Shown here: piece after piece, positions 54,383 to 60,282 of the stretch | How the letters are laid out: the number at the start of each line of letters is the position of its first letter | Position numbering within the stretch: position 1 is the first letter of the stretch | Origin: Hysterium pulicare CBS 123377 | Taxonomy: Eukaryota > Ascomycota > Dothideomycetes > Hysteriales > Hysteriaceae | Assembly: GCA_000467715.1 (NCBI GenBank) | Contig: AJFK01000202.1 | Span: 1 to 64,000 of the forward strand | Reading direction: 5' to 3' | DNA length: 64,000 nt | The notes under the pieces: model-generated | Seen by the model: the letters and a program-made list of their open reading frames with translations, nothing else | Told to the model about the DNA's origin: nothing | Databases searched by the model: none | Translations under genes and position numbers: made by a program

Positions 54383-54836
54383 GTTGAGGACGCAGCGCGT
54401 GGACGGCTGCCTTGAATGGGAAAGAATGATAGCTGGTCTCACTGTGGCCCAACATTCGCAGAGGAGAAGGCAGCTCCGGAGCAATTCGTGCGGGTTGGGG
54501 AGGAGCGTCGAGCGTGTTCAACCTGTGCGAATAAAGAAACCGCAACCGCGACAGCCCAAGTCTTGGCATACGCTTCGGTGCCGCGGGTCTGTCATTGGTC
54601 TTGGCAGGCCCAATCACGCGACAAAATCTTCTTGTTAGGACATGTAGGCACGCACTCAGCGTCGCGGTTCATCTGGAGAGTATGCTAGCATTGTATGGGT
54701 CATGAACGTATATATTTCAGATTCGCTTTGAGCACTAGACAGCAAGTAACAACCGTGACAGACGCCTTGAACGACCGAAGCACGATAAAGCCAAACCATG
54801 CCAGTCGCCGCCTGTGCAATCACATTACGACTGCAG

Positions 54837-56330
54837 TTAAGCAGAGACAGCAACCTGCGCGGGCTGTTGGTTGATGACGGGCGCCGGCTCGCTCTTTCCA
54901 ACCGCATGTCCCTCAAATTCCCCGTCGCTGGGGTGGACACCAACCCGTTCCTTGCTCAACAAATCCACCAGAAGTGGGCTGGGCTTGGTATCCCTATCGG
55001 ACAGGGTAGCCTGGTGATTCTTGTACTTTTGCACGCTCTCGACATACTTGTCGAAGAGGTATGCCGAGTCCATAGGTCCGCCCTTGGCCTCGGGATGGAA
55101 CTGAGCACTGAAGATGGGTCGCGAGTTGTGGATCAACCCCTCGTTCGACTGGTCGTTCAGGTTGGTGAAGTATTCCCTCCATCCATCTGGCAGAGTGGTC
55201 GCGTCAACAGCGTATCCATGGTTCTGAGAGGTGATATGGCATTTGCCCGTCGTGAGATCAAGCGCTGGAATGTTGTGAGCGCGATTTCCATACTTCAGCT
55301 TGATGGTTTTGGCGCCTGCAGCAAGCGAGATGAGTTGATGACCCATACAGATGCCCATAATGGGGATTTGAGAGGTTTCCATCAGTTTGCGCAGATTGTA
55401 AACGGTGGACAAACAATGCGTTGGATCACCCGGCCCATTGGAGATGAAAACGCCATCGAAATGATGCGCAACCTTATGAATGGGATAGTCAAAAGGGAAG
55501 GCAGTGACGCTGGCACCTCGAGCAACTAGACTACGAAGGATGTTCTCTTTGACTCCGCAATCGATCAGAGCAACGTGCATGTCGCCAAGTCCGGAGCTCA
55601 CGTGGAATGGTGCCTTGGTGCTAACTCGGCGGACCAAGTTGATGGTCTCAGGGTCGATGTACGCTTCATCTTCGTCGGCGTCGTATTCTTCGCCAATGGT
55701 CATGCGAGCAAGAGAGGAGCCCTGCTCACGAAGGTAGGTCACAACAGCACGTGTATCAACTCCAGATATGGCCGGAACACCTTCCCGAGCACACCACTCG
55801 GCCAAACTTTCCACGGCAGTCCAGTGACTGTGTTGAATCGCGTAGTCTTGCACCACAATACCCGCAGCCTGGATGTGTGGAGATTCAAAGTATCGGAGTA
55901 AGCCATATTCGTCTCGGGCGGAGGAGGGTACCCCGTAATTACCGATCAGGGGTTGTGTGAATACCAAGATCTGGCCACGATAGGACGGATCGGTCATAGA
56001 CTCAGGGTAACCAACAAGGGAGGTGGTGAAGACAGCTTCACCAGAGATGTTGGCCTTTGCACCAAACGACTTTCCGGAGAAGATTGGCCCATTCTAAGGA
56101 AAAGCGGTGAGTGACATGTTGGAGACGAGATAAGGGGAAGGGTAGTGCGTATGTACCTTGATGGTAAATGTAGCGCGCTCAGTAGAGATTGCTGTAGATC
56201 GACGCGCGGGAGAAGGCTGTTGACGAGCTGTGTTGGTTTGGACAGTGGCCATGAACCTACGTGCTTTCATCGCTTGCCCCAGGACGTTCCCGGACCGCAT
56301 TGCGGAAGGCTTGAGGAATTGAGAGATCAT
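54837..56330 (-). CDS. cpa1: Carbamoyl-phosphate synthase, arginine-specific, small (glutaminase) subunit
   Basis: This subunit releases ammonia from glutamine for carbamoyl phosphate made for arginine, in mitochondria (Neurospora arg-2, yeast CPA1). There are two exons, 56330-56157 and 56093-54837, around a 63-bp intron. They give 476 residues. The first ~40 residues are basic, Ser/Arg/Ala-rich and lack acids, typical of a mitochondrial targeting sequence. The small-subunit N-domain starts [13 protein letters not shown] and includes [13 protein letters not shown]. The class I amidotransferase domain has FISNGPGDP, the nucleophile Cys in [18 protein letters not shown], and the His/Glu pair in [12 protein letters not shown] spliced arginine attenuator peptide uORF precedes it, ending 58 nt before the start codon. 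Confidence 0.97.
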
Positions 56331-56388
56331 GTTGAGTGGAGATTCGAAAGTATTCGGAGATTGTTATGTCGTATGGATGTGAGGGAAT

Positions 56389-56704
56389 TCAGTTTACTGA
56401 TGCCTTCCACAGGTGGTCTAAAGAAGCGGTTAGTGATGCTTCCTAGGCCGTTTGGATCCGGGATGTTTGTCGAAGTATGACATACCTGAGATGTAGTCCT
56501 ATTCAAAGCAATTAGCCCTGGTCATAAGATGCAGGAAACGAGCATGGAGGAGACAGGCATCATAATGTACGAAAGGTCAAGACGATGGCAGTACAGGGCG
56601 TGAAATACACGGTGAGAAGTGGGCAAAGATAAGGGCGGATTTGCTGAAGCGAACAGTCACGGTGGACTTACCTGGGAAGTAAAGGCGGTTTGAACAGCAC
56701 GCAT
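56389..56704 (-). promoter_or_regulatory. Arginine attenuator peptide uORF, split over three exons
   Basis: This is a leader uORF of 24 codons that should stall ribosomes at its stop codon when arginine is high and so lower translation of the CPS subunit, as established for Neurospora arg-2 and yeast CPA1. The pieces are 56704-56672 (11 codons from ATG to FTSQ), 56498-56486 (13 nt) and 56417-56389. The introns are 173 bp (56499-56671, GTAAGT...AATAG) and 68 bp (56418-56485, GTATGT...CTTTAG with a CTAAC branch site). Joined, the core reads FTSQDYISDHLWKA and the stop falls at codon 25. This matches the Neurospora attenuator FTSQDYLSDHLWRA in sequence and in its length of 24. Unspliced, none of the frames gives the core. 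Confidence 0.95.
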
Positions 56705-57543
56705 AAGCGCGATATAAAGCAGTACCGTTGGGGACAAAATAGAGGAGCAAAGATGCTCTGTTTGTGAGTGGCAGCAGGCGGAGACACGTACAGAGTTTTG
56801 TTGACGGAGGACTGTGGTAAGAGTTTATCACGGTGGGGTTTTGCCAGCCTAGATCGGAACATTTCTGCGCTAGGGCGAATCGAGGCGATGGGCCATGACG
56901 CATGAAAGAAATTTTCTGAATTGCACGAGTTGCAAGAACCACAACCGTCGCCATTGTGATAGCAAAGCCAATTGGGGTGTCGCCACATTCGCTGTATCCC
57001 CGCTACGAAGACGCAATTCACATTTCAGCTGCCGGTATCTGGATAGCCGTGCTAAAGACAAAATCTACATTTGAGTGCTCCGATCTTATCTGCGCACGGG
57101 CTTCCCGTGATGACGATGCGTTCACGACTAGCAATTCTCGTAAAAATCTACATGATATATTCCCCATCTACGCGGACTCTGCCCTAGAAATCTATTTACC
57201 AAAGTTATTGCGTGAAAGAGGCTTTCTGCGGCCCTCTGATTGGATAGAATCATGCTGTGCCGAACCGCGGAAAAAGCACGAGGCGGAGCGCGTCAACTTG
57301 TCAAAAGTTAGCATACTTCAAGCACTATACAGGGCAGATTGCGTGAGATGGATTGATGCCATGTTATAATGTACGGGCCACTATGCAAGTGTACGGATTG
57401 GAACATCGCCACAGTCCATCAAAAGCGCTTTAACTGGATTTCTCGAAAGACTGTCATTTGGTAAAGCAATATATACAACGAATGTTGATTGGCCTACTTT
57501 CTTTTCTTCGTTCTTTGGACCGTTGTTCTACATTTATCACATA
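56705..57543. promoter_or_regulatory. cpa1 promoter region and GH3 3' flank
   Basis: It contains the promoter of the CPS subunit gene. A TTTATATCG sequence lies about 10 bp before the uORF start, too close to serve as its TATA box. No further gene is seen. Confidence 0.4.
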
Positions 57544-60282
57544 TCAGACCGTGATGGTTCCATTCAGCCTGATATCCCTGGAGCTTGCTCCGACAGAGAC
57601 AGCGAAGCTGCCACTGGGAACAACCCATTGCTGCCTTCCAGAATCCCAGTAAGAGAGATCCTTCCTCCTCAGGGTGAAGGTCGCTGTGCCGCTTGAGCCT
57701 GCTGTGAGACTCAGTTTGGCAAACCCTCTCAATTGTCTAGGGGCCGTTGCAGGAGCCGACGCAGGCAATCCGATGTAGAGTTGAGCAACTTCAGCACCTG
57801 TCACGCTGCCGCTGTTCTGGATCTTCGCCGTAACTGTTGCCACGGTGTCATAGAGATCGCTGGCGCCACCAGGAGCTTTGGTACTTGCGGCTGGCCCCGA
57901 AGTCGCCTTCGAGTCGACAGTCAAATCCGAGTAAGTGAAATTGGTGTATGCTGGCAATATTGTCAGTGAAGCCTAGGGGTGTGACGAGATCAATGCTCCT
58001 TACACAATCCGAAACCAAACTCGAAGCGCGGAGCAATATTGCTCTTATCGAAATGCCTGTAATCGATGTACAAGCCTTCCGCATAGCTATCATCGCCGTT
58101 GGCAATATTCGTGCCATAGTCACTGGCTTCTTTTGCAATCGTGTATGGTAGCTTGCCGCTCGGCGACGTAGAGCCAAATAGGACATCAACAAGACCGTTT
58201 CCAGACTCCTGCCCAGGCAAGCCCGCCCACACAACGGCTACCACATTAGGATTATCAATGAAGCTTTCTAGAATTAGAGGTCCGACGCTATGGATGACGA
58301 CAATAGTCTTTTTGTTCACGGCCGCGACGGCCTTGACAAGATCGTTGCCTATTTTCACATATTAGCAATGGACTGATTTTCTTTTGAACAGTCGGAGAGC
58401 TGGGCATGTGAGCTTTCTCACCATTGTGCCAGGGATCAAGATTAAGACGGTCTCCTGCATTCTTTTCAACAGTGATGTAGCCCTCGCCAGAGTCAGCATT
58501 TATAAAGACAAGAGCTGCTTCGACGCTCTGCGCTGCCGAAGCCCCAGAACTGGTGGAATCGGTCGTCGACGTTGTAATCGTTGTTCCTTGGGCCTGCGCT
58601 TTGATGGCGTCCAATGGTGCAACAAGATACTATAACAGAGTTTGTGAGATCGAAGACAAGACGAACGGGAGTCGAGCAAACCTACCGGAAACTCTGCTGT
58701 TCCTGAGCCCCAGCCCATTGCGAGTGTGCCATCGTCGCATTGCCTATCAGCACAAGCGTTTGCGCCTTTCGGATTCACGATAGCATCCTGGCCAATGACA
58801 GCTAGACTCTTGGGCTTGTTCAATGGCAAGGCATTGCCAGTGTTTTTGAGCAGAACAATACCATCACGAGCGATAGCCCTGGCAACCGTCTTGTGAGTTC
58901 CTTGGACATCGTGCGTTCCAATGTTCCATGAATCGAAAGTGGCTGTTGGATAGCCGCTATCTTGCCCTACCAGATACCATGATGCAAGAATCCTGCGGAC
59001 CATATCATCGACTCTGCTTTGAGATATTTGTCCACTACTGACCGCACTTTGGAGCGCCGAGCCCCATAGAACATTCTTCTTGTTATAGTCGCTCCCCGGC
59101 ATTGTCATGTCCAGTCCAGCATTGGCACTCCCGGTCGTCGTATGTTGAGCATTCCTCGCTCTTCGTAAGTTTTTCACTTTACTTAGGCTGGATTTTAGAA
59201 AACTTACCAATCGGACATGACGTACCCCTGGAAGTTGAGCTCGTCCTTCAATAGGCCATTCAAAATCTTTCCATTTTCGCAAGCCCAGGTAGAGTTGATC
59301 TTATTGTAACTGCACATCACGCTCGCCACCTTCGTAACATACATTAGCATGGCATATTCTTCCAAAGCGGAACGGAGATCTCGTACATTAGCTTTCACGG
59401 CGTCCGCAAAAGGCCAGAGATATAATTCGTGCATAACACGATCCGCGATGTTCGCACTCATCGTGTCCCGATTCCTCTCTTGCTCATTGCCAATAAAATG
59501 CTTAGCATTAGCCTGAACACCCGCTCCTTGCATGCCAGTGATAGTTTGCTGCATAGCAATACCAGTCAAATAAGGATCAGGAGAGAAACCCTCCCAATTA
59601 CGGCCTCCGGTTGGTATCTTTCCTAGTGGGCCTGCGACAGGGCCGAGCTGCACATGGATACCGAGGGCTTTGCATTCTTCACCGAGAGCCGCCCCTCGCT
59701 GGTTCATGAGCGTGGTATCCCAAGTCGACGCGGCTTGAACGCCAGCAGGGAACGCAGTAGCTCCTTTGACATATCTTATACCGAGAGGACCGTCCTGAAG
59801 ACAGAGCGAAGGGAAACCTATAGAACCCGCCGGTTTAGTATTGCCAACGCACTTGCCGCCCTGCCAACCTACTCCCGTCACTATTCCAACCTTGTCGGAC
59901 ATCGAAAGCTAGGAAAAGGATCAGTCATTGAATAAAGTACCACGAAGCCTTGCGCTCGCAATACCTTGGCAAGGGCCGCATTAGCTTTTGTGTAGGCAGA
60001 AGCCCAATCTCCAACGGCTCCAGTGATACTCGCGTTGGCGGTCGAGCGTTTCGACATCCAGGATGGGTTCGGTACGCATTGAGAATAGTATTGAGTACTT
60101 TTTGAGCAGTAGTATCCGGACACACATTCTGTCGATCCAGTGTATCCATCACCTCCGCCTAAAGTAACTATTAGTGAGTTTATAGAAACATATAGCTTTG
60201 AAGACATACATTGGCTCCAAGCAGATTGCTCAGCTAGTGCGAGCGAGGCCGCGAGAAGTAGAGGTACAATGAACTCGCGCAT
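57544..60282 (-). CDS. Secreted beta-glucosidase GH3 with N-terminal CBM1
   Basis: This extracellular glycoside hydrolase family 3 enzyme probably releases glucose from cellobiose and other beta-glucosides. There are seven exons: 60282-60210, 60158-59965, 59908-59208, 59154-58686, 58629-58422, 58348-58004 and 57950-57544. All phases agree and the product has 798 residues. A signal peptide ([17 protein letters not shown]) is followed at once by a fungal cellulose-binding CBM1: [26 protein letters not shown]. The GH3 N-domain follows with [23 protein letters not shown] and [12 protein letters not shown]. The nucleophile Asp is in GYVMSDW, at an intron junction. The C-domain has KSLAVIG and [10 protein letters not shown]. 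The fibronectin-III-like end runs from [14 protein letters not shown]1 on the N-terminus is less usual for GH3 enzymes. Confidence 0.96.

Follow-up and report, generated by a model that had tools for sequence, protein, structure and literature searches.

A putative arginine attenuator peptide split over three exons, the middle one of 13 nt, upstream of the carbamoyl-phosphate synthase small-subunit gene of Hysterium pulicare

The arginine attenuator peptide (AAP), a textbook case of a nascent-peptide sensor, is mostly drawn as a plain uORF. In Neurospora crassa arg-2 and yeast CPA1, this uORF lies upstream of the CPS-A small subunit. PMC7969011 describes arginine stalling by the AAP and reports that the yeast D13N (Asp-to-Asn) change abolishes arginine regulation. 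According to PMC7049704, the mRNA of a Cryptococcus CPA1 homolog rises in a upf1 mutant; the paper cites Hood et al. 2007 on how the CPA1 gene and its uORF evolved. Splicing has its own precedents in fungi. Xlr2 of Trichoderma virens has a 20-nt microexon whose inclusion is seen in low glucose, and some transcripts of the T. reesei ortholog keep intron 1; before the Xlr2 exon, functional microexons were undescribed in filamentous fungi, according to PMC11121469. Fungal leader splicing can also decide uORF content, as PMC5882874 describes, the Neurospora NMT1 TPP riboswitch (Type I) being one such case.

Here we describe a leader from H. pulicare CBS 123377, found in a stretch of 64,000 nt of contig AJFK01000202.1 (the window; Table 1). 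As in arg-2 and CPA1, a uORF lies upstream of the CPS-A small subunit, and its peptide carries an FTSQDY-SDHLW core like that of PDB 2xl1, but the H. pulicare coding sequence runs over three exons with a middle one of 13 nt, Neurospora being compared by peptide alone. Joined on the minus strand, the three exons give a uORF of 24 codons plus TGA, encoding MRAVQTAFTSQDYISDHLWKASVN. The AAP coding sequence is very probably cut by two introns, with four core residues on the 13-nt exon. The sequence-only reading had proposed that the AAP uORF of the CPS-A small subunit exists only once two introns are removed, one on each side of this small exon, and both the frames and the peptide agree with it. 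Asp12, which we take to correspond to D13 of the yeast AAP, is encoded by the opening codon of the 13-nt exon, and the uORF stop follows codon 24. In Xlr2, too, a tiny exon encodes a portion of a functional core and had escaped the gene model; that exon differs in being 20 nt long, in lying within a transcription-factor coding sequence and in having an RNA-backed glucose dependence (PMC11121469), whereas the H. pulicare exon is predicted from sequence. The likeness to NMT1 is that 5'-leader splicing sets the uORF content of a feedback-controlled biosynthetic gene. There, a ligand-binding RNA picks the splice site, whereas the H. pulicare leader has no Rfam match and its sensor would be a peptide (PMC5882874). 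The Rfam search covered 56100-57543 without a match at E <= 1, and a leader-splicing riboswitch was rejected on this result, no known aptamer being found in that stretch.

Table 1. Positions of the leader and gene features in the window.
Feature	Position	Strand	Remarks
uORF exon 1, 33 nt	56672..56704	-	codons 1-11, MRAVQTAFTSQ
Intron 1, 173 nt, phase 0	56499..56671	-	GTAAGT donor, CTAAT branch-like site, TAG acceptor; 4 ATGs
Microexon, 13 nt, GACTACATCTCAG	56486..56498	-	codons 12-15 (D Y I S) and first base of Asp16
Intron 2, 68 nt, phase 1	56418..56485	-	GTATGT donor, CTAAC branch-like site, TAG acceptor; 1 ATG
uORF exon 3, 29 nt	56389..56417	-	remaining Asp16 bases, HLWKASVN, TGA stop
Spacer from uORF stop to main start codon, 58 nt, without ATG	56331..56388	-	
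Arginine-specific carbamoyl-phosphate synthase small subunit (476 aa)	54837..56330	-	one CDS intron, 56156-56094, 63 nt
Sequence around donor 1 with complementarity to the beginning of exon 3 (10 bp, one bulge)	56666..56683	-	lead only

The spliced uORF peptide matches Pfam Leader_CPA1 (PF08252) at 44.2 bits (cut-off 18.5, E 1.2e-11). Its sole PDB match at E <= 10 is the arginine attenuator peptide 2xl1 (E 6.5e-6), also of 24 residues and with the same core; we take the 2xl1 peptide to be of Neurospora origin. For a chance test, all ATG-started peptides of 16-40 codons with 0-2 introns were enumerated, allowing a loose donor, a branch-like site and YAG, and each candidate was scored against 17 residues of 2xl1. 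The 1214-nt real region yielded 6 candidate peptides with a top score of 74, and the top score over 60 dinucleotide shuffles was 16. Among 3465 candidates from the window and 200 kb of its contig (264 kb, both strands, 528,000 bases), the AAP scores 74; retaining its intron 2 lowers the score to 31, and no unrelated peptide exceeds 24. A six-frame Leader_CPA1 search of the 37.2 Mb genome found no unspliced AAP copy. Its one sub-cut-off match at E <= 10, C161:250558-250584, spans 9 profile positions at 16.8 bits, below 18.5 (E 0.31), and was taken as chance; it lies about 194 kb from the AAP on the same contig. Judged on peptide and position, the uORF is likely to be the AAP of a fungal arginine-specific CPSase small-subunit gene, with its two introns removed, probably constitutively.

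The large CDS exon of the downstream gene, translated from an internal start, matches GATase (PF00117, 179.2 bits) and CPSase_sm_chain (PF00988, 100.5 bits). Among the best 120 of 7999 scored proteins, the named homologs are fungal and similar in length, and several bear the name of an arginine-specific small chain (or subunit). Many of these 120 are labelled 'Multifunctional pyrimidine synthesis protein CAD', a label that their length does not appear to fit. The one other PF00988 match in the 37.2 Mb genome is on another contig (C454:56548-56961), and this small-chain domain is probably that of the pyrimidine (CAD-type) enzyme. A 243-codon ORF at 54798-55529 on the plus strand runs antisense to the CPA1 coding sequence, and nothing marks it as a gene. 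Upstream lies a glycoside hydrolase family 3 gene in the same orientation (57544-59902, minus strand; PF00933 and Fn3-like exons), separated from the uORF start by a gap of about 840 bp. A TGCGTCA sequence at 56902 on the minus strand, some 200 nt ahead of the uORF, presumably resembles a general amino-acid-control binding site; TGASTCA is absent from 56331-57543.

Both uORF introns have donors that rank high for this genome and standard branch-like sites. GT hexamers were ranked by their excess of intron-like tails over the 264 kb, within which intron 2 itself lies. On this measure the donor of intron 1 ranks 2nd and that of intron 2 ranks 3rd, with intron-like tails at 20/106 and 15/125 sites against 1601/38524 (4.2%) control sites; by fold enrichment GTATGT (2.89) falls below GTGTAA, GTAAGC and GTACGT and outside the top three. 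The donor of the CDS intron, GTACAT, ranks 29th by excess. The branch-like sites begin 13 and 12 nt before the ends of introns 1 and 2, respectively, and in neither intron does another AG intervene between the branch-like site and the acceptor. A coding-bias intron set comprised 4 introns, too few for site ranking, and served solely to locate the branch-like sites in this gene's three introns. Intron 1 is much longer than intron 2. With simple repeats and very common words skipped, each intron matches nothing but itself in a genome search at E <= 10, and a repeated (introner-like) family was rejected. Together with the frames, the peptide family and the architecture, these splice signals are what can be read from the sequence itself.

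AAP pieces were sought in the first 200 residues of 121 proteins (the best 120 of 7999 scored plus P0121) and occur in four of them, P0021, P0050, P0111 and P0121. The Lineolata gene model P0050 starts MRAAPTIFTSQ, by eye identical to H. pulicare exon 1 at 8/11 positions, and continues with H. A retained GT intron would read V at this point, so we take it as a predicted junction; the AAP piece of P0050 has no Pfam Leader_CPA1 match. The Coniosporium gene model P0021 aligns to Leader_CPA1 from profile position 12 on (24.3 bits, cut-off 18.5) and reads DYISDHLWKAS uninterrupted, either spliced or intronless, and neither model is informative on intron 2. Both come from Dothideomycetes, P0050 from Lineolatales and P0021 of uncertain order, and as unverified, misfused models from outside H. 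pulicare they are consistent with an intron that separates residue 11 from residue 12, as intron 1 does here. The core is unbroken in the Pseudogymnoascus model P0111 and in P0121, neither of which informs on introns. P0050, P0021 and P0111 fuse AAP pieces onto the enzyme N-terminus, a sign of annotation pipelines mishandling the leader. A search with residues 1-40 of P0111 kept 2 of 5 candidates, P0111 and P0121 themselves, and a composite AAP query for further AAP-bearing models kept none of 3.

At the DNA level, with the 418-aa CDS exon as query, none of four pattern matches in viral contigs was confirmed. In genome contigs, 124 relatives were confirmed, and the best 80 of these 124 are all bacterial or archaeal and of no use for the leader. 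We also built a tree from the H. pulicare CPSase small subunit and 22 of the 121 proteins, three Leotiomycetes included. The H. pulicare protein belongs to an 8-row clade (support 100/99) that includes the Pleosporales Parastagonospora, Didymella and Pyrenophora. An earlier suggestion that the host belongs to the Leotiomycetes is not borne out, as the enzyme groups with Pleosporales and apart from the three Leotiomycetes.

Mis-splicing would alter the peptide in several ways. Skipping of the 13-nt exon leads into another frame and gives an 18-codon peptide, MRAVQTAFTSQTTCGRHQ, and retention of intron 1 truncates the peptide to 15 codons, MRAVQTAFTSQVSPP; the sequence-only reading had predicted the 18 codons and a truncation by intron 1, and the joined frames agree. 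Retention of intron 2 alone gives 33 codons, and use of an AG inside exon 3 as acceptor gives a 17-codon form in which Asp12 is kept and DHLWKAS is lost. The microexon ends in CAG right before GT, so rarer use of that AG could yield the skipped form in two steps. The complete core is absent from skipped, retained and exon-3-AG forms alike. Since a uORF is still present in every mis-spliced form, with retention bringing up to five extra AUGs, the outcome would be a loss of arginine sensing rather than simple derepression of the main ORF.

The uORF start (CTT-ATG-C) has C at -3 and thus no purine, and the main start (AAC-ATG-A) has A at -3. This pairing is what leaky scanning would lead one to expect. 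In the mechanism that we propose, both introns would be spliced out, probably constitutively, with the 13-nt exon providing Asp12-Ser15 and one base of Asp16. The leader would then work like those of Neurospora and yeast, some ribosomes initiating at the weak uORF start and the rest scanning past it. When arginine is plentiful, the nascent AAP would stall the ribosome at the uORF stop, and this stall would reduce initiation at the main start, 58 nt further downstream, and expose the mRNA to decay. An AAP core with its essential Asp would depend on two splicing events. The splicing as drawn, its constitutive nature and the stalling by the peptide are what we infer here.

Splicing of this leader may be read in other ways. 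It could set the level of expression and not the arginine response, with intron retention as the usual failure and unspliced leaders decayed. The ATGs in intron 1 and intron 2 (four and one) and the truncation of the uORF by a retained intron 1 are consistent with such a role, and the CDS junction 232 nt past the uORF stop is, from general knowledge, a possible fungal decay signal. Both donors are good for this genome, however, and we consider this reading rather unlikely, while noting that it is compatible with our best explanation. Far less probable still is that the uORF is a relic, with transcription from downstream of 56704 and a peptide that is rarely made though its sequence persists. 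The TATAT at 56716-56712 begins 12 nt before the uORF start, with 7 nt left between, and is so near that transcription from a promoter centred on it might begin within the uORF. Against this, an intact 24-codon AAP across two introns would imply continuing selection, and a pyrimidine-rich stretch (23/30 bases from 56755 down) would suit a transcription start upstream of the uORF.

Constitutive removal of both introns also has to be weighed against regulated splicing, which the sequence-only reading had proposed as an arginine switch. In that case, conditions would decide whether the 13-nt exon is included, or whether intron 1 is retained, and so turn an arginine-responsive leader into an arginine-blind one, and pairing with exon 3 could hide donor 1. 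General knowledge suggests that two spliceosomes should be crowded by a 13-nt exon, and the Xlr2 20-nt microexon of T. virens and the intron 1 retention in T. reesei serve as precedents; even for Xlr2, however, PMC11121469 has no reads joining exons 1 and 3, and plain skipping is not seen there. The predicted duplex between donor 1 and the start of exon 3, a pairing present in the pre-mRNA fold, has an energy of -15.7 kcal/mol, equalled by 1/1000 synonymous recodings, but it is also equalled by 12/400 nulls if the top-scoring of four splice sites is used, in a test chosen after the fold was seen, and 23/2000 are as good when the exon-end CAG is kept. For donor 1 against the whole region, 6/400 nulls are as good, and the other three splice sites are unremarkable (38, 243 and 391 of 400). 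The donor 1/exon 3 complementarity is a weak, post hoc lead only. The overall pre-mRNA fold was rejected as a cause, since 55/100 shuffles fold as well (z 0.20), and so was structure in the spliced uORF, where 429/1000 synonymous recodings are equally stable. The good donors, the standard branch-like sites, the lack of an Rfam match and the ordinary fold all argue against the proposed switch, and we regard condition-dependent splicing as improbable. There is equally little to be expected of the more specific idea of a regulated 13-nt exon, controlled perhaps via the donor 1/exon 3 pairing, such that splicing decides whether the mRNA senses arginine. If true, regulated inclusion would form a second, nuclear layer above the nascent-peptide sensor.

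In the literature searched by AAP-core strings and split-uORF wording, with Hood et al. 2007 outside that set, we found no description of a split AAP uORF. The study of Hood et al. is reportedly a comparative one of the AAP uORF. It may already describe introns in the uORF, and we do not claim the split AAP as unreported. As far as can be told from sequence, the split leader of H. pulicare is real, and it amounts to a variant of a regulator already known. If the AAP core depends on a 13-nt exon, it would be missed by uORF surveys of unspliced leaders and by gene finders blind to tiny exons. The AAP is a small, well-understood peptide, and inclusion of a tiny exon could here be read out as loss of the arginine response. 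As a predicted arrangement, the split AAP would put the accuracy of splicing ahead of an amino-acid feedback loop.
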